A stretch of DNA of 34,927 nt from a virus. The notes under the pieces were generated by a model that searched no databases, was not told where the DNA came from, and saw only the letters and a program-made list of their open reading frames with translations. Where the stretch lies: positions 1 through 34,927 of IMG/VR virus record IMGVR_UViG_3300042691_011429. The stretch is one strand, 5' to 3'. Of the stretch, positions 3,321-34,927 are shown one piece after another. Position numbers and translations under genes: made by a program. Each line of letters opens with the position of its first letter. Position 1 is the stretch's first letter.

Positions 3321-4063
3321 TGGCAAACGTCGTCAGATCGTGGAAAAAGTTCATGGCTGTTGGTTGCTCCCATGGCCACCACGCTGACCAAGCTCTTCTC
3401 GATAAGGTGCTTGCGTTTAAGCGCAGGTGGAAGCCGCACACCACGTTGCACCTGGGTGATGCTATCGATTTAGCGTGTCTCAGGGTAAATGCAGGAGAGG
3501 TTGATTCAGCCGTTGATCCTGAGACTGACTTGAACGACGGGCTCACGTTCCTGAGCCGGCTTGAGCCACAGGTCTATTTCCTCGGTAACCACGAGGCCCG
3601 GCTTAACACACTCATGGAGTCACCGCGTGCCATTGTGGCTGCTCTGGCTGCTCGCGTGATGACCCAGATCACTGACCGGGCTAAAGAGATGAAGTGTCAG
3701 GTTGTGGATTACAACTTTCAAAAAGGCTGGCGCATGTACGGTGATGCACTCTTTGGACACGGGTATATGGCAAATGAACAGGCCGTGCGGGATCACGCAG
3801 AGGCAATCTGTGAAGGGGCGGCCAATAAGGTAGTCATAGCGCACTTGCACCGGGTACAGCAGGCCGAGGGGCGCAACAGGGCGCATCCAACGGGGTACTG
3901 TGTGGGCTGGTTGGGGGATGTTAATGCTATGGGGTATGCTGCCAACCGGAGAGCAACGACCTCGTGGAGCCGCGGCTTCGCATGGGGAGAATATTGCAAC
4001 AACGAGACGATTGTATGGCTAGCAAAAGAGACAAAGGACAACCAGTTCAGGTTGCCGGTATAG
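3320..4063 (+). CDS. Calcineurin-like metallophosphoesterase
   Basis: 247 residues using ATG 3320, which overlaps the previous stop; an upstream ATG at 3257 would add 21 residues inside the neighbour and was not chosen. The two-metal phosphoesterase motifs appear in order: GCSHGH (15-20), LGDAID (45-50), GNHE (89-92), GHGY (146-149) and AHLHR (174-178). Phage members are usually phosphodiesterases or nucleases of unknown substrate. The first motif is odd: the usual metal-binding DxH is here CSH, so Asp is replaced by Cys16. This may alter metal preference or activity. The 3' end overlaps the next gene by 49 bases. Confidence 0.85.
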   Translation: MANVVRSWKKFMAVGCSHGHHADQALLDKVLAFKRRWKPHTTLHLGDAIDLACLRVNAGEVDSAVDPETDLNDGLTFLSRLEPQVYFLGNHEARLNTLMESPRAIVAALAARVMTQITDRAKEMKCQVVDYNFQKGWRMYGDALFGHGYMANEQAVRDHAEAICEGAANKVVIAHLHRVQQAEGRNRAHPTGYCVGWLGDVNAMGYAANRRATTSWSRGFAWGEYCNNETIVWLAKETKDNQFRLPV

Positions 4064-4272
4064 ACTCGGTTATAGCGGCCTTAAAGGCGGAGCTTCATGG
4101 TGAACCGCCACCAGAGGGATGGTATACCGTTGCTCAGATTGCCAAGATGCTCGGTATCCCTAAACAAACGGCTGAAGGTTTAGTGGGGCGCAAACAGTGG
4201 GAGTGTGCGCAATATACGACAAAAACGACAGACAATCGTACCATTAAGGTTAAGCATTACCTGATCACATGA
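4015..4272 (+). CDS. Small HTH protein
   Basis: 85 residues from ATG 4015, inside the end of the phosphoesterase gene. A longer reading from 3964 would add 17 random-looking residues. After a basic start, the section GWYTVAQIAKMLGIPKQTAE followed by a second helix and WECAQY looks like a winged or DUF-type helix-turn-helix in which AKMLGIPKQTAEGLV is the recognition unit. The tail TTDNRTIKVKHYLIT reads like a wing. Probably a small DNA-binding regulator. The stop overlaps the next ATG. Confidence 0.6.
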   Translation: MASKRDKGQPVQVAGIDSVIAALKAELHGEPPPEGWYTVAQIAKMLGIPKQTAEGLVGRKQWECAQYTTKTTDNRTIKVKHYLIT

Positions 4273-4484
4273 CCTCTGAACAGAAGCAGGCTTACATCGA
4301 GAGGATGGCTCGTGAGATAGGCGAGCACTTTGACTGTGTACAGGTCTTGGCTCACGACAGTGACACGGACACCTATCAGACGTTCGAAGCTGGCAGCGGT
4401 AGCCTGTTTGCGAGGATGTATCAGGCGCAACGTTGGGTGGAAGAGGAGCCGTCGCTCATCGAGGACGAAGAGGAAGACGAATAG
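4269..4484 (+). CDS. Hypothetical small acidic protein
   Basis: 71 residues, start overlapping the preceding stop as ATGA. The N-terminal helix (SEQKQAYIERMAREIGEHFD) leads to a short beta section (VQVLAHDSDTDTYQTFEAGS) and a very acidic tail (EDEEEDE). The composition is typical of small phage early proteins that bind host factors, but no family is recognised. It is the last clearly coding gene before the repeat tract and terminator. Confidence 0.6.
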   Translation: MTSEQKQAYIERMAREIGEHFDCVQVLAHDSDTDTYQTFEAGSGSLFARMYQAQRWVEEEPSLIEDEEEDE

Positions 4485-4486
4485 CG

Positions 4487-4556
4487 ATTTCAAAATCCAA
4501 ATCCAAAATCAAATTTCAAAATCAAAATTGGAAATCAAAATCAAAATCCAAATTGA
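4487..4556. repeat. AT-rich CAAAATC repeat tract
   Basis: About 70 bases are built from CAAAATC and close variants. Exact copies lie at 4491, 4504, 4517, 4536 and 4542, with variants CAAATCC, CAAATTT and CAAAATT between them. The tract starts three bases after a stop codon and is far richer in A+T than its flanks. It could be a melting element, a protein-binding iteron array, or a product of polymerase slippage. Confidence 0.7.
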
Positions 4557-4626
4557 GTTGGTCCCGGCCCCACACACGCCTGCCACACACGGGCACAACC
4601 TGGACCCTGGCGCGCCTAGCTCCGAT

Positions 4627-4782
4627 TTGGTCGATCACCGCCGAAGCATAGGGCGCAAGGGTGGATCGGTCACAATCGACGCGAAGGCAAAGGCGGCACG
4701 AGAGAACGCGCGGAAGCCACGTCCGAAGGCGCGAGAGAGGCACGCAGCCCGCCGGATTGAGGGGCAGGAAGGGCAGAATTAG
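4627..4782 (+). pseudogene. KGGS-type small basic ORF without a clear start
   Basis: The frame ending at 4782 encodes IGRKGGSVTIDAKAKAARENA followed by more basic residues. This resembles the widespread GKGG..AKAKAARxNGRKGG motif of small phage and plasmid proteins. No ATG precedes it in a sensible position; TTG 4627 is the nearest candidate. The same frame continues upstream through the CAAAATC tract to an ATG at 4330, but that part is a shadow of the neighbouring gene. It may be a remnant, or a gene with a non-ATG start, ending just before the terminator. Confidence 0.35.
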
Positions 4783-4793
4783 GGCAGCAAGAA

Positions 4794-4827
4794 GGGCACC
4801 CCGATTTCTCAAGGTGCCCCCTTTTTT
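4794..4827 (+). terminator. Rho-independent terminator of the early operon
   Basis: The 7-bp stem GGGCACC (4794-4800) / GGTGCCC (4813-4819) has a 12-base loop and is followed by CC and a run of six T (4822-4827). It closes the plus-strand early genes and lies between them and the convergent minus-strand cassette. The T run is on the plus strand only, so it should act in one direction. Confidence 0.8.
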
Positions 4828-4840
4828 GGTGTAGCGTGCT

Positions 4841-4906
4841 TTAGTCTTTGAAGAGGATGGACAAGACTAGATACAAGGCCAGAGCCTCGACGAGTCGGTC
4901 ACTCAT
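4841..4906 (-). CDS. Tiny membrane peptide
   Basis: 21 residues, MSDRLVEALALYLVLSILFK then D, stop TAA. Its ATG overlaps the stop of the upstream gene on the same strand (ATGA at 4906-4903), the coupling style seen in this cassette. Residues ~6-19 form a single hydrophobic helix long enough to sit in a membrane. Too short for family recognition. The coupling is the main support. Confidence 0.4.
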   Translation of the reverse strand: MSDRLVEALALYLVLSILFKD

Positions 4907-5100
4907 TCGCCCCTCCCTGTGTTGCCGCCGAACTCATACGGGTCAGGCTCAATGATGGACTGCAATTCAGCCAAACACTGCTCCATGCTGGAGCAAACTC
5001 CTTGGTGCCTAGGCGTTGCCCAACCCCACCAAGCCTCGCCTATTTGCCAATAACGGCAAACCCCGATTCCGGGTTCTCTCCATTCGGTAACATTTTTCAT
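4903..5100 (-). CDS. Hypothetical small protein of the minus-strand cassette
   Basis: 65 residues beginning MKNVTEWREPGIGVCRYWQI. It is rich in Trp (WWGW) and Cys, with a helical second half (SSMEQCLAELQSIIEPDP). ATG 5100 overlaps the TGA of the gene before it (ATGA). No family recognised. The composition is protein-like, and the plus-strand alternative frame over this region (5002-5394) looks random, so the minus strand is preferred. Confidence 0.55.
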   Translation of the reverse strand: MKNVTEWREPGIGVCRYWQIGEAWWGWATPRHQGVCSSMEQCLAELQSIIEPDPYEFGGNTGRGE

Positions 5101-5243
5101 AGCCTCTCAACCTCCAGTTTCCAGTGTGTCGCCCACAGCATAGCTTCATGCTCGCTAGGAAACGCTAGGACACGGTCTGAGTCGGCAAGGGTGAAGCGGA
5201 GTAACCAGTGGAAGCCGGATTGTTTAAGGGTGGCGTGGTGCAT
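5097..5243 (-). CDS. Hypothetical 48-residue protein
   Basis: ATG at 5243, TGA at 5099-5097 overlapping the next ATG. The protein starts MHHATLKQSGFHWLLRF and contains LADSDRVLAFPSEHEAMLWA, a strand-turn-helix with an amphipathic end (THWKLEVERL). Only two bases separate it from the upstream gene's stop (5245), so the two are probably translated together. No family recognised. Confidence 0.5.
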   Translation of the reverse strand: MHHATLKQSGFHWLLRFTLADSDRVLAFPSEHEAMLWATHWKLEVERL

Positions 5244-5244
5244 A

Positions 5245-5418
5245 TTAACGGAAACGGGACTCTTTAGGGGTGACAACCAGCGTGAGCGCCATGGCCGCCG
5301 GAAACCAGAGCATCATAGCCGTTTCCAACGAAGGAAAGCGACAGAGAAGCCAAGCGTCAGCAGCAAGAAGCACGCACGAGGCGAGGCGAATTAGGGCAGT
5401 GTGTTTGTGGGTGTTCAT
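5245..5418 (-). CDS. Small two-helix membrane protein
   Basis: 57 residues, ATG at 5418, TAA at 5247-5245. After a polar start (MNTHKHTALIRLA) there is a hydrophobic helix SCVLLAADAWLLC, a short turn (RFPSLETA) and a second one, MMLWFPAAMALTLVV, then a basic end (PKESRFR). This is the shape of a small hairpin membrane protein. It could affect superinfection or membrane state, but no family is recognised. The short spacing to the next gene suggests an operon. Confidence 0.5.
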   Translation of the reverse strand: MNTHKHTALIRLASCVLLAADAWLLCRFPSLETAMMLWFPAAMALTLVVTPKESRFR

Positions 5419-5450
5419 TAGTGTGTAGTTTGTTTGGGTTGGGGAGAGTA

Positions 5451-5645
5451 TTACTTAAGGATCGCGCGCAGCTTGTCAACGTGGGCAAAGCGACCCGTGC
5501 GACGGTGGATGGCACAAGCGTGCTTAGGGGACCGTGCAAGCAAGGTGTCACAGTATACCCACCAATATTTGCGGCCCGTTGCTCCTGCATTACGAGCGGT
5601 AGGTGTAAGAGGTAGTCTAGCGTGCACAGTGTAGGTTTTGTTCAT
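5451..5645 (-). CDS. Hypothetical small basic protein
   Basis: 64 residues starting MNKTYTVHARLPLTPTARNA and containing GRKYWWVYCDTLLAR and a basic C-terminal stretch AIHRRTGRFAHVDKLRAILK. Basic and aromatic, plausibly nucleic-acid binding. Chosen over competing plus-strand frames (5421, 5434) because its composition is protein-like. It lies 32 bases upstream of the membrane protein gene on the same strand. Confidence 0.5.
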   Translation of the reverse strand: MNKTYTVHARLPLTPTARNAGATGRKYWWVYCDTLLARSPKHACAIHRRTGRFAHVDKLRAILK

Positions 5646-5731
5646 TGTTAGTTTGTTGTTTGGTTGTTAGTGGTGCAGGTTATCCGCACCCTGCCGCCCC
5701 CCTCACTGTGAGAGAGGCGGATGGGCACGGA

Positions 5732-5929
5732 TTAACGCAACAGAGACTCAGCAGATTGCCCGCAGAGTGCCTGCATAGGCTCCCAGAGGTCACGCTTAAA
5801 GGGGTGAGTGGTAACATGTGTAAGGATTTGCACTGCGTTGTGCTCGGCAAATACGCCAAGCCAAGAATAGAGCACGCCTTCATGGGTGCAATAGAGATGG
5901 CCGTTGCTGTCGTAGTGGAAAAGAATCAT
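5732..5929 (-). CDS. Hypothetical small protein, head of the minus-strand cassette
   Basis: 65 residues from ATG 5929 (MILFHYDSNGHLYCTHEGVL). A beta-hairpin-like start is followed by VFAEHNAVQILTHVTTH and a helical end with ALCGQSAESLL. A longer reading from 6082 adds 51 Pro/His/Arg-rich residues that look random, so it was not used. A frame ending at 5926 overlaps this ATG, but its composition is doubtful. No family recognised. Confidence 0.5.
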   Translation of the reverse strand: MILFHYDSNGHLYCTHEGVLYSWLGVFAEHNAVQILTHVTTHPFKRDLWEPMQALCGQSAESLLR

Positions 5930-6624
5930 GGGACCAAGTAATCGGCAGCATGAGTGCAGGGCTTTAGCGCAAAAATTGCGAAAACGAGCTGACCTGTAGG
6001 TTTTTTGTGGGTGCGTAGGGTGCGGTTCCGGGGACCAGGTGCGAGCGTAGTGCGGAGAGTGGGTGCGAGCAGGGTAGGACATGCTGTGTCATAGGGCAGG
6101 GGTTTAATGCGTGCCAGTGCCCTCGTTCTCACACAACCCTGCGCGACCCTCCCGGCACCCTCTCGGCAGCCCACTTTGCCATGCTCAGCCCCTCACTTTG
6201 CACATTCCATAACATCACACAACACCCGTCATATGGAGTTGCCTCTGTAATCGTGGCCACCAACGCCACCGAGCTCGGTTGACCGACGCCAAACCAGATA
6301 GGGGGGGAGGGGGTCCGCCTCTGCCCAGGAACTTTTGCTACAACTCATCCCCCCACCTGAAAATTTTCCCCGCAAATGGCCCCCGTAGCGCGCACTCAGC
6401 CCCTCCGAAGCGCGCCACACTTGACGTGCTGCTACACACTGCGCTACACCTGCACACGTTGGTTGGGTGCGCTAAGAGACGCGAGCATGTTGCTCCTGTG
6501 CGCTGTGTTTGGGGCTTCTCCTCGGAGTGAGGGGCCGTGGTCACAGTGTGCAGCCGGTCCTCCTGGGAGGGCTGGGCGTCTTTTGTGCTTGTGGATTGTA
6601 TACAATCGTAGAACTTCAGGGCGT
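5930..6624. other. ~700-base stretch with no convincing gene
   Basis: Long frames exist on both strands but all have random-looking composition (Pro-, Cys- or Arg-rich). The sequence contains homopolymer-rich patches, including G runs near 6301-6311 and C runs near 6350-6384. One 28-residue minus-strand ORF (6215-6129, MLWNVQSEGLSMAKWAAERV...) is barely plausible. The stretch separates the divergent minus-strand cassette from the plus-strand gene at 6625, so promoters for both probably lie here, although I cannot point to a good -35/-10 pair. Confidence 0.5.
6594..6607. promoter_or_regulatory. 14-bp perfect palindrome before an orphan gene
   Basis: GATTGTATACAATC is a perfect inverted repeat centred between 6600 and 6601, ending 17 bases before ATG 6625. 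It contains a TATACA -10-like core. Such a palindrome is suited to a dimeric repressor or activator. No well-spaced -35 element is evident. Confidence 0.45.
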
Positions 6625-7110
6625 ATGGTTTTTACAGTTTCGGAGAAGCAGATTAAGGAGCGCGACGGTGCGGCGTATGATTTGGATAAGTACGTCTTGG
6701 GCACCGATTATGTCGTAAGACGGGCGTTTAAGGGCGAGCGCCGCATGTTTAGGAAGGGTATACTCGATCTTAACGACGTTAAAACGGACATAAGCCCGGT
6801 TATATCGCAACAAGAGCACGATATCATGGCTTATGAGCCAAACATAATCGAGTTAAGCGTTGTTGACCCGAGTTTAGTGGAGCATAAGCAGAATAAGCCG
6901 CCCCTTGTGGTACAGTTAAGTGAGCCTGTCGTGGCTAGGCCGGCCAACCTGGATGGCAAGGTGCGAAGCGCCAGAGTGGTTAAGAAGCATCAAAACCAGC
7001 GTTGGGTGGAGACGGACACGTTAGGCCGGGTGTTCGTCGGAGAGAAGGGCCACCAAATTAAGATGTACCAGCTTATACAGATTAAGGACGGCAGTCTGTA
7101 TCTTGGCTAA
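6625..7110 (+). CDS. Hypothetical protein between the early and late modules
   Basis: 161 residues from ATG 6625 (MVFTVSEKQIKERDGAAYDL). The frame is open far upstream, but the 83 extra residues look random. The protein has a charged N-terminal helix, a central section with DLNDVKTDISPVISQQEHDI, a Val/Pro-rich linker (PPLVVQLSEPVVARPANL) and a C-terminal basic beta section (RWVETDTLGRVFVGEKGHQI). No family recognised. It frequently uses TTA, GTT and TAA-type codons less common in its neighbours, which may hint at a separate origin. It is followed directly by the hairpin-rich region. Confidence 0.6.
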   Translation: MVFTVSEKQIKERDGAAYDLDKYVLGTDYVVRRAFKGERRMFRKGILDLNDVKTDISPVISQQEHDIMAYEPNIIELSVVDPSLVEHKQNKPPLVVQLSEPVVARPANLDGKVRSARVVKKHQNQRWVETDTLGRVFVGEKGHQIKMYQLIQIKDGSLYLG

Positions 7111-7530
7111 CGTAGCCCTGCTGTTACCCCTTCGGGCCGTCGGCCCGACCCTTCGGGGTAACTTATTGAAGTGATATACTTCCGGTAAGCTAGAACCCGG
7201 AGTCTGAGCATAGTACCCCCAAGACTGAGTGTTAGCCACCTAGAATTGGGGGTAGTGCTCAGTTTGAAGCGTTACACTTCCGTATAAGTGTCACCGTCGC
7301 GTCGCATATCACAGTCTCTGCCCATGGCTACCCGTTCAGCCTAGCATTGTCTCTATCGCGGACGACTGTGCAGCACTCACTGATTCTTGAACACCAGTGA
7401 TCTTTAATCTCGGTCGAGAGGGATACCGAGAACCATGTCTTCGCTAGTGGCTCCATCTTTCAGGTTGACCAGTAGGTACGCGGCCTTCTTATCCTAGAAG
7501 GCACAGGTAACATTCCAAAAAAAGACCAAC
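7111..7530 (+). ncRNA. Candidate structured RNA (hairpin-dense region) upstream of the terminase
   Basis: No reading frame is convincing here. Stems visible by eye: GTTACCCC/GGGGTAAC (7123-7162) enclosing TCGGGCC-GTC-GGCCCGA (7132-7148); GAAGT/ACTTC (7168-7182); CTGAGCA/TGCTCAG with TACCCCCAA/TTGGGGGTA inside (7204-7262); ACACTT/AAGTGT (7274-7291); CACAGTC/GACTGTG (7310-7370); TCACTG/CAGTGA (7377-7400); TCTCGGT/ACCGAGA (7408-7431); CTA.TGG/CCA.TAG (7444-7475); GCCTTCT/AGAAGGC (7483-7502). The density of stems across 380 bases is well above that of ordinary spacers. It could be a discrete ncRNA or an elaborate 5' leader of the late operon. No known class is recognised with confidence. Confidence 0.55.
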
Positions 7531-9255
7531 ATGTCAACAATCGACGACCAAAAAGATCGACTCATTCAGAAGCTGCTAAAGTTCCCGTTGGTTGAACATC
7601 CCTTGATGCCGGCTCCCAACGAGGAGCAGCGCATGACGATGATCGAGAACGTCGGCCCCGAGGAGACGATGCGCCTCTTCCTCATGCGCGAGCAGCGGGT
7701 CAAGGCGGAGCTGGCAGATCCGCACAGGTATGGAACGGAACTGGCTTCTTGGAAGGATGCTGACCAACTGCTCAACAACTGTTCGGAACTGCTCATCCTT
7801 GGTGGCAACCGGGCCGGGAAGACGGAGTACGCAGCTAAACGTATCGCTCAAGCCTTTGTGGGTACTGACCTGAACGGCTTTGCCCCTCACTGGGTAAGCG
7901 ACAAGTTTAAGAAACGTGGCCTGAACATCTGGTGTTTGCACACGACCAACATGACTAGCGTGTCCATGCAGCAGAACGTGTTTCATAAGTACCTTCCATC
8001 GGAATTGAAAGAAGCCAAACGCAGCAGGACGACCCAGGTGAGTTGGACCCAAAAGAACGGCTTCTCTGACAACACAGCAGTCTACAACGGTAACCAGATC
8101 TGGTTCCTGAACTACAGCCAGGACATCAAGGTCGTCGAAGGCGGCGAGGTGGATTTTGTGTGGTGTGATGAGCTTGTCCCGGCTGACTGGCTGGAAACGC
8201 TCAAGTACCGTCTTGTCACTCGAAACGGAAAGCTACTCGTCACCTTCACTCCGATCCTTGGGTACACACAGGTCGTTAAGGAGTTCATCACGACTGCCCG
8301 GATCAAGACTTGGAAGGAGAGTGAGCTACTTCCCAACAACAACGTGCTGGGCGTACCAAAGGGACACATGCCCTACACCGCGGAAGGTGTGTACGGAAAG
8401 CACGCCTGTATTTGGTTTCACTCAAAGCTAAATCCCTACAATAACTGGGACCGTATGTGCCAGACCTTAAAGGGGCGCAGCACTCACGACATTAAGATCC
8501 GTGCCTACGGTTGGGCAGAGCAGACTGCCGGGTCACAGTTCCCCATGTTTGGTGACTTTAACGTGTTCAGTGACCCTGTAACAGAACGTGCACCACAGGG
8601 GACCAACTACATGGTGGCTGATCCGGCTGGAGCTAGAAACTGGTTTATGCTCTGGGCCAGAGTAGACGAGCATGGCACAATCTGGATCTACCGTGAATGG
8701 CCGGATCAAAGCTACGGTGAGTGGGCGTTGCCAAGTGACAAGGCAGACGGTCGCCCCGGACCTGCACAACGCAGCGGATCTGGACGCGGTATTAACGAGT
8801 ACACTGAACTGGTTTGGTCCCTAGAAACTCATGCTGACAAACGCGAGGAGATTGCAGAACGTTACATCGATCCGAGAAGCGCAGGAACGGAGGCTACGAC
8901 GAAGGAAGGTGGCGTTACGCTGCTTGACCTTCTTATGGAAGCTACGGAACCGTTGTATTTCCTGCCTGCTGCCAGCGTGTCAGTTGATGAGCGTGTTTTA
9001 ATCATCAACGATTTGCTGTGTTATAATAGGGAAGCCGATCTGGACATTAAGACTAACCATCCGCGGTTGATGGTGCATGAGAGTTGCCAGAACCTGATTT
9101 ACTCGTTAAGAGAGTGGACTGGGCACGACGGTCAGAAGGGGGCTTGTAAAGATCCGATTGACGCTTTAGGATACCTTGTGGTAATGCAACCACGCCACAT
9201 ATCGTCTTCGTTAAGTAAGGAGTGGCAAAAGTTTAATAAGTGCGGGAGCTATTAA
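7531..9255 (+). CDS. terL: Terminase large subunit
   Basis: 574 residues, the ATP-driven DNA packaging motor and headful/terminal nuclease, acting at the portal of the prohead. ATPase domain: Walker A GGNRAGKT (91-98) and Walker B VDFVWCDE (207-214), with a downstream TFTP coupling-type motif (238-241). RNase H-like nuclease domain: VADPAG (Asp364), RYIDPRSAG (Asp447) and CKDPIDALGY (Asp541/Asp544) fit the conserved acidic triad. Full length for the family. It starts immediately after the hairpin-rich region, has no Shine-Dalgarno sequence, and opens the late operon; the portal follows after three bases. Confidence 0.97.
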   Translation: MSTIDDQKDRLIQKLLKFPLVEHPLMPAPNEEQRMTMIENVGPEETMRLFLMREQRVKAELADPHRYGTELASWKDADQLLNNCSELLILGGNRAGKTEYAAKRIAQAFVGTDLNGFAPHWVSDKFKKRGLNIWCLHTTNMTSVSMQQNVFHKYLPSELKEAKRSRTTQVSWTQKNGFSDNTAVYNGNQIWFLNYSQDIKVVEGGEVDFVWCDELVPADWLETLKYRLVTRNGKLLVTFTPILGYTQVVKEFITTARIKTWKESELLPNNNVLGVPKGHMPYTAEGVYGKHACIWFHSKLNPYNNWDRMCQTLKGRSTHDIKIRAYGWAEQTAGSQFPMFGDFNVFSDPVTERAPQGTNYMVADPAGARNWFMLWARVDEHGTIWIYREWPDQSYGEWALPSDKADGRPGPAQRSGSGRGINEYTELVWSLETHADKREEIAERYIDPRSAGTEATTKEGGVTLLDLLMEATEPLYFLPAASVSVDERVLIINDLLCYNREADLDIKTNHPRLMVHESCQNLIYSLREWTGHDGQKGACKDPIDALGYLVVMQPRHISSSLSKEWQKFNKCGSY

Positions 9256-20026: not shown

Positions 20027-20203
20027 ATGGAAAAGTTCATCTCGCACATGCTCGATCAGGTGGCAGGTCAAGGCTTGTCAATGGCGTTCACCATCATTGC
20101 CGTGTGGTATTTGTACGGCAAGATCGTCGAGTGCGAAAAGGATCGCAAAGCTCTTTGGGAGCGTCTTCTTAACCACAGCAGTAGCCATGAAACAAACCAT
20201 TAA
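20027..20203 (+). CDS. Holin-like small membrane protein
   Basis: 58 residues, ATG 20027, TAA 20201-20203. A short polar start (MEKFISHMLDQVAGQGL) leads to one transmembrane helix (SMAFTIIAVWYLYGKIV) and a charged cytoplasmic tail (ECEKDRKALWERLLNHSSSH). One membrane helix plus a charged tail, placed directly before another membrane peptide and the endolysin, is the layout of a class III-type holin or a spanin/antiholin partner. No family signature is definite. Confidence 0.65.
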   Translation: MEKFISHMLDQVAGQGLSMAFTIIAVWYLYGKIVECEKDRKALWERLLNHSSSHETNH

Positions 20204-20366
20204 AACCTACGTCAAGCAACCTTCAACCTGGTTGGGCCTTGCTAAACTCGGTGCTGCGCTGGGCATCTACTCAAGCGGCGCGGCTGGCGCGATTAGCAGC
20301 GCAGTCATTGCAATCTTCGGGCTCGTCGATGTCGTCCGCAATGAGCGTGGTTCCGGCCAATCCTAA
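20187..20366 (+). CDS. Second holin-like small membrane protein
   Basis: 59 residues from ATG 20187, overlapping the previous gene by 17 bases. A basic start (MKQTIKTYVKQPSTWLGLAK) is followed by a long hydrophobic, Ala/Gly-rich stretch (LGAALGIYSSGAAGAISSAV then IAIFGLVDVV) that can form one or two helices, and a polar end (RNERGSGQS). It resembles small phage holins with two tight membrane helices. Its end overlaps the endolysin start by 26 bases, indicating coupled translation of the lysis cassette. Confidence 0.7.
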   Translation: MKQTIKTYVKQPSTWLGLAKLGAALGIYSSGAAGAISSAVIAIFGLVDVVRNERGSGQS

Positions 20367-20883
20367 CTTTGAAAGGTCGCTAGAGTTTGTCCTCGATGCC
20401 GAGGGCGGATTTGTAAACCACCCGCACGATCGTGGTGGCAAGACTAACCGCGGTATTCTCCAGCGTGAGTACGACGTCTACCGGGACAACCGGCAGGAAG
20501 ATCGTCGCTGCGTGAAGGAGATCAGCCAAGAAGAGCTGGAGGATATCTACTACAACGACTATTGGGTTCGCGGGAAGTGCTACAAGTTCCCGTATCCTCT
20601 GTGCCTAATTCACTTTGACGGTTGCGTCAACACTGGCGTGGGTCAGGCCGGAAAGTTCCTGCAACGTGCCGTGGGGGCTCAGGATGACGGGATCATCGGC
20701 AACAAGACCATTATAGCATACGAGAAGAAGGTCGATGACGTTGGCCTTGAGCCCATCTGTGACTCGATCATGCAGCAGCGGCAGGACTTCTATAAGCTAC
20801 TGGTCAAGTTGGATGACACGCAGAAATCGTTCAGTAAAGGCTGGAGTAATCGCCTCACAAACCTTAAAGAATACATAGCATGA
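20341..20883 (+). CDS. Endolysin, GH108 N-acetylmuramidase with PG-binding domain
   Basis: 180 residues from ATG 20341 (ATG 20329 is an alternative). It cleaves the glycan backbone of host peptidoglycan for lysis. The GH108 signature is FVLDAEGGFVNHPHDRGGKT-NRGI with catalytic Glu21 in EGG, and LCLIHFDGCVNTGVGQAGKF follows. The C-terminal part matches PG_binding_3 (QDDGIIGNKTI near 114-124, then the helical end). There is no signal peptide, so release depends on the holin-like proteins just upstream. Ends ATGA-coupled to the zinc-ribbon gene. Confidence 0.93.
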   Translation: MSVVPANPNFERSLEFVLDAEGGFVNHPHDRGGKTNRGILQREYDVYRDNRQEDRRCVKEISQEELEDIYYNDYWVRGKCYKFPYPLCLIHFDGCVNTGVGQAGKFLQRAVGAQDDGIIGNKTIIAYEKKVDDVGLEPICDSIMQQRQDFYKLLVKLDDTQKSFSKGWSNRLTNLKEYIA

Positions 20884-28057: not shown

Positions 28058-29161
28058 ATGGAACTTCCAGGCTCTTACGCAAACTTGATGCAGTTTGTGC
28101 CCGAAAAAGCACGGCCTATGGTGGAGGCTGGAATGAAGGTGCAGGCAGAAAGAAGGAACGCACTTGCGTCTCAATTAGCTCAACAGCAAATGCTTCTTCA
28201 AAGCCAGCGTGATGCAACCGTGGCTGAAGTTGAAAAGCAGTTCTCTGAGCTTCCTGACGAAATGAAGCAGTTCCCTGCTGTGCAGCACGAACTTAAAAGG
28301 CAGCAGATCCTTGCCGACATGGACATGGATCGTGGCCTTGCGTCGCTTAGTGCATATGGTCAGCCCAGTGAGGTGCTTAATAATCAGTTAAAGATGGTTA
28401 AGGAAAAGTACGATAGATACGAAGAAGCACTTAAACCATGGGAAACCACGGAGTCAAATAAGACCATCAAGCAAAACTGGCATAAAATTGCAGATTCAAA
28501 CAAAAGGGTTAACACCCTAATTTCTACAATCTCAAAAACAAAAGAGTTACTTGATTCTGGTGACAAGCAGGCTGCAATGGACAACATAAGGATGAATGTC
28601 CTTAAGCCTCTTAACTCTATTGACTCTGATGATGCGATTCAGATCGGGGAAGTTTTGTTGAAGTTCAACAAAGTAATGACCGCGCCAGAAACTGCTGAGT
28701 TTGCGGGCAAAAAGATTACCAATCCAACAGTCTGGTTTAACAGGTATCTTCAGGCAAAAACCAAACAGGAAAAAGAAGGTATTCAAAAAGGGTTCTTTGA
28801 AACGATTGAGACCTTGTTTGACTCGGACCCAGAAGGGTTTCTTGAGACTGCCATTGATGGGGCAAACTCTCATGTTGACTCGTACAACAAACGGCTTCGT
28901 GAACAGGTCATCAACACCACAAGCCCCGGCGTTGCAAGGCGCATGGGTGCTGTTCCGCTGGAGTATGTTTCGCAGATCAGAAAGCCGCAGCAACAGCAAA
29001 CTAGCCCACTTTCTACACGAAACCCGCTTGGGCAGACCATGATCTCTGGCGGCGCAGGCTCTGCCACACCAAATCCGGTACAAGGCCCAGTTGAGGAGCC
29101 AATCCAGGATCCATTGCATAAGCCGCTTGGAGGCTCTACAATTATCAGGATCATTCGTTAA
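28058..29161 (+). CDS. Internal virion protein, helical
   Basis: 367 residues from ATG 28058 (MELPGSYANLMQFVPEKARP); a longer frame from 27926 is a shadow of the preceding gene. Mostly helical and charged (ALASQLAQQQMLLQSQRDAT; KMVKEKYDRYEEALKPWETT) with a Pro/Gln-rich end (RKPQQQQTSPLSTRNPLG). No enzymatic motif. Position between two other internal proteins suggests it belongs to the ejection complex. Confidence 0.65.
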   Translation: MELPGSYANLMQFVPEKARPMVEAGMKVQAERRNALASQLAQQQMLLQSQRDATVAEVEKQFSELPDEMKQFPAVQHELKRQQILADMDMDRGLASLSAYGQPSEVLNNQLKMVKEKYDRYEEALKPWETTESNKTIKQNWHKIADSNKRVNTLISTISKTKELLDSGDKQAAMDNIRMNVLKPLNSIDSDDAIQIGEVLLKFNKVMTAPETAEFAGKKITNPTVWFNRYLQAKTKQEKEGIQKGFFETIETLFDSDPEGFLETAIDGANSHVDSYNKRLREQVINTTSPGVARRMGAVPLEYVSQIRKPQQQQTSPLSTRNPLGQTMISGGAGSATPNPVQGPVEEPIQDPLHKPLGGSTIIRIIR

Positions 29162-29162
29162 T

Positions 29163-32100
29163 ATGGAACCACAAGGTCAGCCAGTCCCAATCATACCTGC
29201 CGGCACAAAGGTTAAGCTGCCTTACCACATCAATCCTGAGACTGGCAGTGGTTATGAAATTGAGGTGCAGACAGACACTCCTCAGCCAGAGTTTCAGGCT
29301 GAAGTAGATCGTTTATTTCCAAAGACGCTGGCGTCCCTTGCAACGCAGTTGCTTGATAAGGATCCGACTGCACCCATGTTGTCAAAAGAAGACTTCATGG
29401 CAGTCTGGAACAGTGCTCAGGCTATGGACGCCGGGAAGACTGAGGCACAGAATCAGATCAAGGGTGGCCCAGGATTCTTCAAGAAGGGCTACGATGTGCT
29501 CAAGCACATGGCCAGTTACATCGGTGAAGGTGCCGCTGAGACACTTGGAATTGCTGCTTCGATGGCACCATCTGTGGACATGACTGGTTCCATGGACATG
29601 GATCCAAACGCTCAGTCTAAAGCCGGCATCAAGCTCCTAAATGGCATCCTGACAGGAACTGGCAGACTTATGGACGCGGCGGGCGTTGTGGGAGCGCTGG
29701 CTTGGGACAAGATCGCCAACGACCCATACTCTCTGTACACCACCGGCAAGTATGCGCAGCAGGCTGAATATATGCGGAAGGCTCAGGGCTACGGGATGCT
29801 GCCTGGGTCTACTCAAGAGGAAATCGACTCTGGCTTAAAAGCGGGCAACATCCTTGACATCACCTTGCTGTTTCCAGCGGTCTCAGCCCTTACAAAGGGG
29901 ATGGGCAAAGCCGGAGAAGCCGTGGCGGGACAAGCGCTTGAAGAGTTCTCTAAAAGCCTAGCACAACGCTCCGTTGATAGCCTTGGGCGAAGAGCCTTGG
30001 GACAAGCAATGGAGACTGCTGGTGGAGCGCTTGAAAAGGTTGGCTCCTTTTCTGCGCTTGGAGATTCGCTTGCCCGTGGATTCTTAAGAACCGAAACCGC
30101 AAAAGCTGGCACAGGACTTAGTGCCGTTGTGGCTGGCAGCGTCCTTCCAGATGAAGGCCCACTCTCGTATGCCGGAACCGCCCTTCAGGCTTATGGTGGG
30201 CTTCGCTTTGCCCAGTACGCCGGTGCTGCCACGAAGTGGGCGGGACGAGTTCTTGGCTCCGAAGAGTTGGCTTCTAAGATCATGCAAGATGCCATGCGCA
30301 ACGCTGAAGTGCAGGGTGCTGAGCGTTTGGCAGTCAAGTTGGTCAAAGCCGCTCCAGATCCTGCTGTTCGTTTGACGCGCAAGGTTCTCGATGGAGCGAT
30401 GATCCCGGCAACCATTGGCGCTACTTTGAGTGGAGCGCAGGAAGCCGCAGATCCTTTTAGCACTCCCCTTAGTGTTGCGCAGGCTGCCACCTATGGCGCT
30501 ACTGGTGGAGCAGCGATTGGCGGAGCAATTGGTGGGACAACTGGACTTGCGGCAGAGTTGACCGGCAAGGCTGCCCAACAGGCTTTCGTGCGCGAGGTGC
30601 TCACGGACATCGTCACTCGTCCAGAGGAACGGTCATTTATCATCAACAACCAAGATGTCTACATTCCGGATGACATCCAAAACAGGTTGAATGTTCTTAA
30701 CTCAGAGAACATGACTACACGGCAAAAGGCTTCCCTGTTTGGGATCCTTGACAGTGCCGAACACGCTGGTGTTGATGTAGCTTTCATCAACGACGCCACA
30801 CCTCTTCCTGATGCCTTGGGTGGTTCTGGAGCCAACATGGGCAAGGGTGTCAAGTTCGTCAACGACGCCGGGCGCAAGACGATTTTCATCAACGCTGATC
30901 AGATTAACCACACTGGCGCGATACACGAGGTGATGCACGCCTACACCAGTGACCAAGTGGCATCTGACTTTGTGCGGAACCTGTCTAAAGAACGTGGCGG
31001 AGAACTGGGCGCGTTCCAAGAGCTGGGCACGATGGCTCAGAAGTATTACGACACCCAGGCTCAGACCAATCCTGCGGCTGCCGAACAGATCAAGGCGAAC
31101 ATTGACCGGATGAATGATCCATCCCTGCCTATTCAGGACAGACTTGTGGCGGCAACAAATCTGGCGCATGAGTACATCGCTGAAGGCGTTTCGCAAAGCC
31201 TCGCAGACGCCAAGCCTGAGTCCCTGCAAGACTTCCGCGGTTCTGCCATCTCGGCGTTTGCAGACAAGGCTTTCCGTGGAGCTTTAGAGAAGTTCCAGAC
31301 TGCAACCGGGATGAGTTCTGTTGGTGCAACTCGCGATCCTATCTCTGGTCACTTCTTTAAGGATGGCAAAATCATCAGCAGTCAACCGTTGGCAGATATC
31401 ACCAAAAAGATTCAGACTGCCATCAACACGCGCACTCAGGTGCCCACCAGTGTTAAAGCTGCCACTAAACCATTTGTCGAAAGGGTTCCGAAGGACGTTC
31501 CTATTGTTGGTGAAACTATGCAGAACGGTGGCCGTGTTGTGGCCGTGGAGCCGCGAGCAACCTATGAGGACACTCATCCCAATGGTGCTCTAACCACCGA
31601 ACAGGAAAAAGCTGTCTACCACAAGGCTATCTACAATCAGGTAGCTCAGGCTATGGGCGCAACTGATGCAAATGCTGTGCTCATCCAGCAGGGTGTTTAT
31701 CCCGGCAACATTCAGGTTGGGACTCCGATTATTTACGCAGACAAGCTAACGCCTCAGCATGTCTCTGCTTTGTTTCAGGCTCAAACTCAGCATGGCGCTC
31801 CGCTCATTGCGCCAGAAAACCGTGAGGCTGTTGCTCGCTTTGCTCAGGCACTTAACGATGGTCACCTTGTTTCCGTAACGCATAGTGTGAACGTCGGCAA
31901 ATCTACCGGCAAGGATCGTGCCTACACTGCCAGGGTTGCTCAGGTTGGGTTACCAATGGCGTTCAGCATGACCAGTGGCAAGAAGGGTTCTGGCCCCAAG
32001 ATGGAGTTCTTCAACCTATCGCTTGCCAACGACATGATCAATCTGAACCGGACTTACTCTCCGGCGATTGACGCGGCACTCAGGGATCTGCGTGTCAACT

Positions 32101-34292
32101 CACTGGAAGATGTTGTGCCATATGCTAAGGCGTACATCGACAACCTAAGCTCTACAGGATCGGTGCCATCAGCAAGGGCACTAGCCGCTGTGGCCCCAGA
32201 GGGAGCCAGCACGAAGAATCTAGAGTTCATGCGCGACATGCTGCATATGTCTAGCGCAATTCAGCCTAGGGCTAAACGTGGCGAGGTTCGTATTAATGAG
32301 CCCTACATGGACCCGATGAAGTTTCGCAACGTTCCAAAACCGGAACTCGAAGCTGTCACTCCTCAGGGAGAAAAGTTCAAAACCACTCTGTCCCGTGAAC
32401 GCACTGGCATCCAGAGTATCCGACTAGATGGGATCAGTGATGTTCAGCTTTACCAACCTAATGGTCAGCCTGTGCAGGTTACGGTTGATAAACCGCAGCT
32501 TGTAAACAAGATCCGCGCAAACTTTAGTCCAGCAACATCAAAGCGGGAGATGCTAGCAAACGGAGAGACCGTCACGGACAACGTGACTGGTGAGCGGATG
32601 ATCATCTCGCCCAAGGGTACGGCAAAACTGTTTGATCCTGCTGGTCAACTGGTTGGAGTTTTTGAGAACGAAGAGGCTGCTGTTCTTAAAAGCAACCAAG
32701 CAAAACTAAAAGCAGCAACAGCAGAGACAGAGGCGAATGCCAGGCCAACACTCCATCGCGTATTTGAAGGTGGTCAGCCTATAAAAGTGACTGGGGAAGG
32801 CGTTTTTGCAGCCAAGCAACCTGAGCTTGCGTTTCGCATAACTGGCGAGCCTCAGATCAAAGATATTATTGAATCTGGTGTTGTTCGAGCAAGAGAAGGC
32901 AAAATGCGCGGCGGAAGATCTGGGGAGACCCAATGGTCCCGTGGCCATGAGTCACTAGGGTACAGGGCTTCTTCAAATGATAACCGGTATATTCTGGTTG
33001 CCTCTTCAGACATTAATGGTTTGCAAGGCGGGCTGCCTGCGTCTGACCTATTGCAGGTTTTAAAATCAGAGAATGGACAATGGGTAGATGTTACGAATGA
33101 AATAAAAACATCAGCATCTGGCGCAAGAGGCGTTGCTCAAATAATCCCTCCTTCTCGCAGGTTTAACGTCGAGTCTGCTGACATCCGCTTTTCTCCCAGT
33201 AGAACCGCTGCTGAAAAACGTGCGGCTGAGGTTGCTGCTGAAGAGCGCAAGTACGGTGTAAGCTCACGCACTGTGCCTGTTTCCATGATCCTAAACGAGG
33301 GCGAAGAGATCAGCAGAGCTATGAACGAGATCGTTCGTGAAAGTACGCCCACTCTTGTTGGTAAACTTGGAGCACCTGAAGATCTCGAAGCAAGGATAAC
33401 ACGAAGCCAAGCTGTGCTTGAACAGGTTGCTCCAAAGGAAGCTCTAAGCAAAACGGTCAGTAAACTTGCCCGCAAGCGCAAAGAAATCCAGCGCAAACAG
33501 GCTGAGATTGAAGCTGCTGTAGCCAAGACGGAAGCTGAAGGCACCATCGGTCCTGTGCCGGTTGGTCTGCGACCGCTGCCAGCAGTGAAGACTTTCAAAG
33601 AACTTGGTGACCTGCCTGGTGGCAGTCCAACACGGCTGCCATCTGAGCTGAAGATCAATCCAGAGCAACTGCGTCAGGTCTTCCGTAACCTTGACGTTGA
33701 AGAGTTCCCAACACCACAGGAAGCACCTCCTGCTGTCACAGATCTTATCTCGCAGAAAACTCCTCGCTCCGAGATCACGCACCGCACTGTGCTGGGCAAC
33801 ATACAGTCCGAAGCTGCCAAGACTGCTAGAGTTGGCGACATGAAGATTGACCAAATGCTCAAGGCCATGAGCGAAAAGCGTGAGGCCATGTTTGACGCTG
33901 AGCTTGCCCGTGTCAGAAACAAGTTTGACACTATGGAGTTGCAGGGCAAAGCAGAGGAAGCCCGGCAAGCTGGCATTGATCCTGAGATTGTGCGTCTTCG
34001 TAATGAGCACTTTGCTAACGTACAGCAACAGATTGCTCAGGTTGCTGAGCCAGCTCCGCTTAACAGTGGGACACCTGAGCCACCTGTGGAGACGCTCTTG
34101 CCCAACATGGCGACCGCTGCGGACGATCCTCGTATCCCGCGGGACATTGTCATTCAAGCCAGCCGTGGTAAGTTTAGGATTTGGTCAATCGGTAGACAAG
34201 CCGTACAGGCTGTTACCGACACCTATCAAGAGGCACTAAAAAAAGCGCAAGCTATTCAACTCAAACGCAGGAGAAAACAAAATGCCGCTTAA
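29163..34292 (+). CDS. Giant multidomain internal virion protein with zincin motif
   Basis: 1709 residues from ATG 29163 (MEPQGQPVPIIPAGTKVKLP). After a helical N-terminus and a Gly-rich hydrophobic stretch (GATGGAAIGGAIGGTTGLAA, ~446-466) comes a zinc metallopeptidase signature IHEVMHAYT (HEVMH 588-592) with HEYIAEG downstream as a possible third ligand. Later sections include a domain around ITGEPQIKDIIESGVVRA (~1225-1315) ending near ADIRFSPSRTAAEKRAA (~1340), a phrase typical of large polyvalent phage proteins, then a charged coiled-coil C-terminus. It is probably packaged and injected; the protease could act on virion or host proteins. Confidence 0.75.
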   Translation: MEPQGQPVPIIPAGTKVKLPYHINPETGSGYEIEVQTDTPQPEFQAEVDRLFPKTLASLATQLLDKDPTAPMLSKEDFMAVWNSAQAMDAGKTEAQNQIKGGPGFFKKGYDVLKHMASYIGEGAAETLGIAASMAPSVDMTGSMDMDPNAQSKAGIKLLNGILTGTGRLMDAAGVVGALAWDKIANDPYSLYTTGKYAQQAEYMRKAQGYGMLPGSTQEEIDSGLKAGNILDITLLFPAVSALTKGMGKAGEAVAGQALEEFSKSLAQRSVDSLGRRALGQAMETAGGALEKVGSFSALGDSLARGFLRTETAKAGTGLSAVVAGSVLPDEGPLSYAGTALQAYGGLRFAQYAGAATKWAGRVLGSEELASKIMQDAMRNAEVQGAERLAVKLVKAAPDPAVRLTRKVLDGAMIPATIGATLSGAQEAADPFSTPLSVAQAATYGATGGAAIGGAIGGTTGLAAELTGKAAQQAFVREVLTDIVTRPEERSFIINNQDVYIPDDIQNRLNVLNSENMTTRQKASLFGILDSAEHAGVDVAFINDATPLPDALGGSGANMGKGVKFVNDAGRKTIFINADQINHTGAIHEVMHAYTSDQVASDFVRNLSKERGGELGAFQELGTMAQKYYDTQAQTNPAAAEQIKANIDRMNDPSLPIQDRLVAATNLAHEYIAEGVSQSLADAKPESLQDFRGSAISAFADKAFRGALEKFQTATGMSSVGATRDPISGHFFKDGKIISSQPLADITKKIQTAINTRTQVPTSVKAATKPFVERVPKDVPIVGETMQNGGRVVAVEPRATYEDTHPNGALTTEQEKAVYHKAIYNQVAQAMGATDANAVLIQQGVYPGNIQVGTPIIYADKLTPQHVSALFQAQTQHGAPLIAPENREAVARFAQALNDGHLVSVTHSVNVGKSTGKDRAYTARVAQVGLPMAFSMTSGKKGSGPKMEFFNLSLANDMINLNRTYSPAIDAALRDLRVNSLEDVVPYAKAYIDNLSSTGSVPSARALAAVAPEGASTKNLEFMRDMLHMSSAIQPRAKRGEVRINEPYMDPMKFRNVPKPELEAVTPQGEKFKTTLSRERTGIQSIRLDGISDVQLYQPNGQPVQVTVDKPQLVNKIRANFSPATSKREMLANGETVTDNVTGERMIISPKGTAKLFDPAGQLVGVFENEEAAVLKSNQAKLKAATAETEANARPTLHRVFEGGQPIKVTGEGVFAAKQPELAFRITGEPQIKDIIESGVVRAREGKMRGGRSGETQWSRGHESLGYRASSNDNRYILVASSDINGLQGGLPASDLLQVLKSENGQWVDVTNEIKTSASGARGVAQIIPPSRRFNVESADIRFSPSRTAAEKRAAEVAAEERKYGVSSRTVPVSMILNEGEEISRAMNEIVRESTPTLVGKLGAPEDLEARITRSQAVLEQVAPKEALSKTVSKLARKRKEIQRKQAEIEAAVAKTEAEGTIGPVPVGLRPLPAVKTFKELGDLPGGSPTRLPSELKINPEQLRQVFRNLDVEEFPTPQEAPPAVTDLISQKTPRSEITHRTVLGNIQSEAAKTARVGDMKIDQMLKAMSEKREAMFDAELARVRNKFDTMELQGKAEEARQAGIDPEIVRLRNEHFANVQQQIAQVAEPAPLNSGTPEPPVETLLPNMATAADDPRIPRDIVIQASRGKFRIWSIGRQAVQAVTDTYQEALKKAQAIQLKRRRKQNAA

Positions 34293-34431
34293 ACATTCTA
34301 AAACAGAAAAGGCGTTCGTTCAGAACATCAAGACTGAGATCGCATCCGGCAAGCCACCCAAGCAGGCTGTGGCTATCGCCTACTCAGTGCAGAAAGAGGC
34401 CGCTCGCAAGGCTTCTGCAAAAAAACGCTAA
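34282..34431 (+). CDS. Small basic phage protein
   Basis: 49 residues starting MPLKHSKTEKAFVQNIKTEI and ending KEAARKASAKKR. It matches the common phage pattern of K...s.k....NI..E...GkP.kQAvAIA....r.a. Function unknown. It overlaps the giant gene's end by 11 bases and has a good AGGAG (34269-34273) eight bases before its ATG, rare in this genome. Confidence 0.7.
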   Translation: MPLKHSKTEKAFVQNIKTEIASGKPPKQAVAIAYSVQKEAARKASAKKR

Positions 34432-34533
34432 AGGTCTGTTGACCTCCAGCCGAATCTCTTGTTGCGTACAACCGTGTGCGGTTGCTGCGGGGACTGCCGT
34501 CCTTGCCCGCACTCGACGACAACAAACACATAA
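34432..34533 (+). promoter_or_regulatory. Spacer with two hairpins between the late operon and next module
   Basis: Directly after the stop is AGGTC-TGTT-GACCT (34432-34445), then CAACCG-TGTG-CGGTTG (34469-34484), a 6-bp stem with a 4-base loop. Neither is followed by a U run, so they are weak as intrinsic terminators. A module boundary is likely because gene function changes here, from virion to DNA metabolism. Confidence 0.4.
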
Positions 34534-34927
34534 ATGAAAGTAGCAAAAATAGCTGACTTGGCCAATCTGGCCGACGGTTCGATCATCGGTGAAATGTCAG
34601 TCCAGGTTAAGGCTGCATTCCCGCCCAAAACTGGCGAGGGCAAGTACGGTCCGTGGCGCGTGCAGGCTGCTGTGCTAAAGGACTCTACCGGAGAGGTGCG
34701 TGCCTCCTTTTGGACTAACGAGGAGATTAAGGACCTGATCGGCCAGACGGTGACCATTAAGTCCCAAGGTGGCGCAAAAGGTTTGCAGGGTTTGTCGGTT
34801 AAGTACTCCAAGCACTCCGACAGCAACGAGCTAAACATCACCGAGAAGGCTGCGATCATTGACTCTGCTGCCGGCGCGTTCCGTCAGGCTGAGACTGCCA
34901 ACAAGGTGAACGCTGCTCTCGCCAGCG
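34534..34927 (+). CDS. OB-fold-like single-stranded DNA-binding protein, 3'-partial
   Basis: At least 131 residues from ATG 34534, running off the window. The part visible reads KVAKIADLANLADGSIIGEM, then a strand pair with KYGPWRVQAAVLKDSTGEVR and FWTNEEIKDLIGQTVTIKSQ. The order of strands (xVxxxxP...GpWrvQxxxLxDxtGxxxxxFWtn) is that of an OB-fold of the RPA/SSB type, common in phage replication modules. It would coat ssDNA during replication or recombination. The C-terminus is missing. Confidence 0.7.
   Translation, partial: MKVAKIADLANLADGSIIGEMSVQVKAAFPPKTGEGKYGPWRVQAAVLKDSTGEVRASFWTNEEIKDLIGQTVTIKSQGGAKGLQGLSVKYSKHSDSNELNITEKAAIIDSAAGAFRQAETANKVNAALAS

Follow-up and report, generated by a model that had tools for sequence, protein, structure and literature searches.

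How a phage could keep one place in its genome for exchangeable small genes, and have each of them expressed, is the question raised by a leftward cassette of six very small open reading frames (ORFs A to F). The window, the whole stretch of DNA analysed, is a linear virus record of 34,927 bases that encodes an SU10-type portal, a Terminase_6N large subunit, and a GH108 endolysin, with PHROG 1328 as its major head protein. The capsid protein is only about 30% identical to those of isolated phages, many relatives are present in IMG/VR, and the family is an uncultivated, SU10-portal-type, small podovirus-like, and lytic-looking one. A 1733-aa ORF at 29091-34292 has no Pfam or PHROGs match. The cassette was described as running opposite to all other genes, which looks right; a possible exception is a 143-aa minus-strand ORF (34428-34859) at the window edge. 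The six ORFs are listed below.

5732 to 5929, minus strand: ORF A, 65 aa, soluble, the gene upstream of an RNA element; about 90–92% identical in the relative L083 and 92% in L002; pN/pS 0.15.
5451 to 5645, minus strand: ORF B, a cargo gene for a basic, soluble product of 64 aa; identity about 80% with L018 and 52% with L019; DUF7227 takes its place in L083.
5245 to 5418, minus strand: ORF C, 57 aa, with two membrane helices predicted; homologues at the same locus in about 13 phage contigs, searched for in part with a profile from a subset of nine C sequences.
5097 to 5243, minus strand: ORF D, 48 aa, an insertion separating C from F that only the window phage and L083 have; 90% identical to L083; pN/pS 0.16, pS 0.56.
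4903 to 5100, minus strand: ORF E, 65 aa, ATGA overlaps with D and F; 88% identical to L083; pN/pS 0.18.
4841 to 4906, minus strand: ORF F, 21-aa membrane micropeptide MSDRLVEALALYLVLSILFKD; kept in L083, L020, L031, L014, L019, L084, L094, and L095, while L024 and L023 have a form of 23 aa.

All six ORFs of the original prediction, of 65, 64, 57, 48, 65, and 21 codons, are present, and the selection check proposed for each of them found purifying selection in its own frame (pN/pS 0.15–0.19, window against L083 and, for B, against L018). Between the window and L083, A, C, D, and E give ratios of 0.15–0.18 in the named frame with zero internal stops, and most other frames contain stops and have ratios near or above 1. 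The frameshifts or stops that would speak against conserved reading frames were looked for in relatives and none occurred. The coding evidence for A, D, and E comes from one close relative; because the window and L083 differ by only three substitutions in C, support for C is taken from the wider family. For B against L018, pS is 0.73 and pN 0.14, and for F across nine phages pS is 0.75 and pN 0.16, so that even a 21-codon ORF is a gene. A second in-frame ATG for A lies upstream at 6082, and the conserved portion agrees with the start at 5929. None of the six matched a Pfam or PHROGs profile above the cut-off. The cassette DNA, protein C, and the DNA of the RNA element had no match in isolated phages, C was absent from the 'phages' collection, and bacterial and archaeal genomes queried with C and the major capsid protein yielded no relatives.

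The genes had been described as six coupled ones. D/E and E/F do overlap by four nucleotides (ATGA), and the single base 5244 separates C from D. The A–B gap of 86 nt, which contains the RNA element, and the B–C gap of 32 nt limit tight coupling to C-D-E-F; the description thus holds for these four and fails for A and B, which the element sets apart. Hydropathy agrees with the two membrane-like products anticipated earlier, with two hydrophobic segments in C and one in F.

Throughout the relatives, the cassette occupies one fixed site, with the rightward early genes on one side and the terminase on the other. A further feature faces its end:

4794 to 4827: stem-loop GGGCACC/GGTGCCC, followed by T6 on the plus strand; folds on both strands; region conserved in relatives.

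As read from the sequence, this stem-loop is likely to be the terminator of the rightward early genes. Relatives' cassettes at the same site end in C and then F, F being a membrane peptide of 21–23 aa in about a dozen of them, and the two genes usually overlap by ATGA (L020, L031, L019, L024, L084). In the window and L083, D and E separate C from F as insertions whose D/E and E/F junctions are ATGA overlaps; in L020 and L034, an additional 27-aa membrane peptide follows F. The C-to-F arrangement is ancestral and the coupled membrane pair is old. The cargo upstream is variable and includes GP88 (PF17338), DUF7227 (PF23872), and several orphan families. Among more distant relatives, the d-group carries a leftward GP88 with a 47-aa membrane protein, and the e-group, also leftward, an AAA_5 ATPase, DUF7192, and a membrane protein of 56 aa; the leftward cassettes of the latter composition in L027, L032, and L037 recall MoxR-type chaperone pairs. 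The whole cassette is inverted in three relatives (L019, L084, L097) and runs there in the same direction as the terminase. Conservation, fixed locus, cargo exchange, and this inversion all support the earlier idea of an independently oriented micro-gene module.

Several further observations concern the surroundings of the cassette. An A/T-rich degenerate repeat (AAAATC-like, window 4484-4556) lies at the junction of almost every relative, in some of them as two copies, and noncoding DNA at 6292-6384, upstream of a gene near 6625-7110, is about 85–91% conserved in several relatives. On the plus strand at 7110-7525, just 5' of the terminase gene (7531), about 340–400 nt of very conserved noncoding sequence contain 15 predicted helices, with 94.7% of cells paired (34–40% in slid controls), 23 pairs with two-sided change against 8.9 when shuffled, and no Rfam match. 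This region may be a large structured RNA of unknown kind or a packaging site with RNA-like structure. The terminase itself is interrupted near residue 97 in L031 (2991-5651) and also in L074, L075, and L079; the frame is open across the insert in several relatives, and L031 has a weak intein-splicing match below the cut-off.

Comparison of the intergenic DNA of relatives uncovered a hairpin between A and B, which belongs to an element with the following parts.

5643 to 5740, minus strand: RNA element, 32 distinct copies in relatives, supported by covariation, a switch test, and sense-strand bias.
5732 to 5734: stop codon of A.
5723 to 5728: arm 1, GTGCCC.
About 5694 to 5720: inner hairpin.
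5686 to 5691: middle strand, GGGTGC.
5672 to 5676: arm 3, GCACC.
5646 to 5671: A/C-rich leader, followed by the ATG of B.

The consensus fold of eight copies has 20 pairs, nine of them with compensatory change, and the model built from these copies retrieved more, each with its 3' end at the ATG of a cargo gene. In 13 copies, 94.3% of cells are paired, against 80.1% in shuffled and 50–57% in slid controls, and 32 two-sided changes stand against 10.3 when shuffled. The fold is kept by covariation on the strand of the predicted cassette transcript; the primary sequence varies between subgroups and the pairing is retained. Genome-wide searches, which found one or two copies per carrier genome, and pattern scans together gave the 32 distinct copies. 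An ATG stands at the 3' end of every one, and an ORF stops at the same position of the hairpin base in 25 of the 32 and mostly a few bases upstream in the rest. The copies join about 20 upstream and 13 downstream unrelated gene families, some upstream ORFs having been assigned mechanically. Two copies occur in L143 (49.7 kb); no terminase, capsid, or portal of the window's phage family was found there, and the element therefore probably extends beyond this family. The cassettes of L023, L031, L084, L097, and L019 have little or no hairpin, which makes the hairpin dispensable for at least some cargo; the leader is present in the first four, including the inverted cassettes of L084 and L097, and the hairpin element was not detected in any of the three inverted cassettes. 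Rfam covariance models gave no credible match at E<1 over 4400-7700, and the literature on GP88, DUF7227, promoter early stem-loop (PeSL) elements, and phage intergenic hairpins yielded no description of the element. Downstream of the hairpin come GAUAACCUGCACC and the A/C leader. The possibility of an intrinsic terminator was rejected, as no run of T/U directly follows the stem on its 3' side.

The middle strand of the element can pair in two ways, with arm 1 just past the stop codon or with arm 3 downstream. The pairing with arm 3 is complete in all 13 aligned copies and perfect in 30 of the 32, with 0.9 expected for shuffled tails, and arm 1 matches at five or more of six positions in 32 of 32. 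A variable base changes together on all three strands, and is of the A-U-A type in the majority of copies from the window's subgroup and of the U-A-U type in the other subgroup. When the first 18 bases are masked, which mimics a terminating ribosome, the downstream hairpin is the best fold in 31 of 32 copies. In all 32 copies, folding is better for the sense than for the antisense strand, as expected from G-U pairs, and this preference points to a role at the RNA level. The leader consists of 55% A and 30% C (A+C 85%) with 1.7% G and has no Shine-Dalgarno sequence; the ATG is unpaired in both folds.

The points of gene exchange coincide with the element. The window and L083 have A and the element in common (about 90–92% and 94% identical, respectively), B is swapped for DUF7227, and similarity returns exactly at the ATG of C, which places the breaks at the B and C start codons. 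Gene 1 and the element are common, with a different gene 2, in the pairs L018/L086, L014/L020, L056/L108, L047/L176, and L138/L156, and gene 2 and the element are common, with a different gene 1, in window/L018 and L056/L047. A tyrosine recombinase (PF00589) was absent from the 15 records searched, with 14 of 14 controls positive, and ordinary homologous recombination would accordingly be the simplest route.

The reading we prefer, with a probability of about 0.6, is a modular operon of small accessory genes that runs leftward, sits at a fixed hypervariable locus, and contains a plug-in RNA joint. On a putative polycistronic mRNA, the hairpin would separate the upstream and downstream messages by processing or stabilisation, and the A/C leader would allow translation of any inserted ORF without a Shine-Dalgarno sequence. 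Since one gene ends and the next one starts inside the element, genes could be swapped there by homologous recombination with their expression left intact. Message separation with leader-driven translation is the most economical reading of the element. The pairing of one strand either upstream or downstream suggests a switch, and its conservation on three strands suggests one gated by the ribosome, which on finishing gene 1 would cover arm 1 and flip the fold. That the element is such a mobile translation-sensing switch, in which the middle strand released from arm 1 would pair downstream and alter the processing or translation of gene 2, is possible, although we hold it tentatively; with the ATG unpaired in either fold, the switch has no obvious read-out.

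The element could instead serve each cargo gene mainly as a promoter or promoter-like site in the DNA, in the way of the promoter/stem-loop cassettes of T4-type phages, and the hairpin would then only end the upstream message. Its place directly 5' of unrelated genes, with which it is shuffled, would suit such a site. We nevertheless regard it as unlikely. No sigma-70-type promoter-like site was found in 4000-7600, where 2.0 were expected by shuffling, a consensus that may not be that of the host; a search for single-subunit RNA polymerase (PF00940) gave zero matches, but as its controls were silent too, it carries no weight here. Pairing is kept while the primary sequence differs between subgroups, the missing T-run speaks against an intrinsic terminator, and G-U pairs that favour the sense strand would be needless for a function at the DNA level.

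The membrane genes raise a separate choice. As a guess from their membrane character, the C–F pair would most likely act at the host envelope, in the manner of superinfection exclusion; for the cassette as a whole, the host takeover or superinfection exclusion first proposed is possible. C and F could alternatively set the timing of lysis as holin and antiholin, since they are small two-helix and one-helix membrane proteins coupled by ATGA. A full lysis cluster already lies in the late region at 20027-20883, with two other small membrane ORFs (20027-20203 and 20187-20366) and the GH108 endolysin (20329-20883), and the cassette is encoded on the opposite strand, within the early/accessory region. 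The adjacent endolysin and late-gene orientation of phage holin cassettes are both absent from it. The lysis control also entertained in the original prediction is therefore unlikely, as is the holin/antiholin variant for C and F.

Less probable again is a recombination site acting as DNA, similar to integron attC, at which a site-specific recombinase would recognise the single-stranded hairpin and shuffle promoterless cassettes. A hairpin between swapped ORFs, variable in sequence and conserved in pairing, has that general appearance; the lack of PF00589 in 15 records with working controls, the one or two copies without arrays, the G-U pairs favouring the RNA sense strand, the fixed position between stop and ATG, and an outer stem without paired RYYYAAC/GTTRRRY ends all argue against it. 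That the six ORFs are open only by chance, on the strand opposite a rightward gene, as overlapping plus-strand ORFs of up to 130 codons might suggest, is rejected on frame-specific selection, and the conserved micropeptides and ATGA overlaps point the same way.

The modular operon with its RNA joint offers a testable answer to how phages take in unrelated small genes and express them immediately: a single shared intergenic RNA would include both gene boundaries, where the preceding gene ends and the following one begins, as well as the homology for exchange. If the switch is real, any gene that acquired the element would be wired to the gene now upstream of it, with no need of a promoter or Shine-Dalgarno sequence. 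The genes of 21–23 codons are among the smallest well-supported phage genes and are skipped by standard gene calling. The element also serves as a sequence handle toward further accessory loci, which are of a kind that often houses anti-host and exclusion genes.

Among known systems, PeSL elements are reportedly mobile regulatory cassettes of T4-type phages, as Arbiol and colleagues are said to have described in GBE in 2010. PMC4177764 cites this reference (Arbiol et al. 2010, doi 10.1093/gbe/evq006). Like PeSL, the element is an intergenic hairpin that recurs beside unrelated small genes of a hypervariable region and acts as a joint when modules are shuffled, and both the shared stem-loop (32 copies) and breakpoints at the element were found here. 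In contrast to PeSL, it has no recognisable sigma-70 promoter, occurs in one or two copies per genome in a small podovirus-like rather than T4-type family, and combines a conserved two-way (three-strand) pairing with a stop codon at its start and an A/C leader and ATG at its end. With no internal early promoter found and with the alternative fold added, it is not filed as a PeSL member. Like the RNase III hairpins of T7-like phages, it is a long hairpin between genes of a polycistronic message that would leave a leader at the new 5' end, cleavage being putative here; unlike them, it is fused to a stop and the next ATG, is mobile between unrelated genes, and conserves an alternative fold. With integron attC sites it shares an imperfect palindrome between exchanged ORFs and structure conserved over sequence, but it shows an RNA sense-strand bias, has no core sites and no arrays, and no integrase was found in 15 records. 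Finally, the cassette resembles the hypervariable accessory or moron-like loci of tailed phages in its fixed position and in swapped small genes without known function, and differs from them in ending with a constant pair of coupled membrane micropeptides and in being invertible as a whole.
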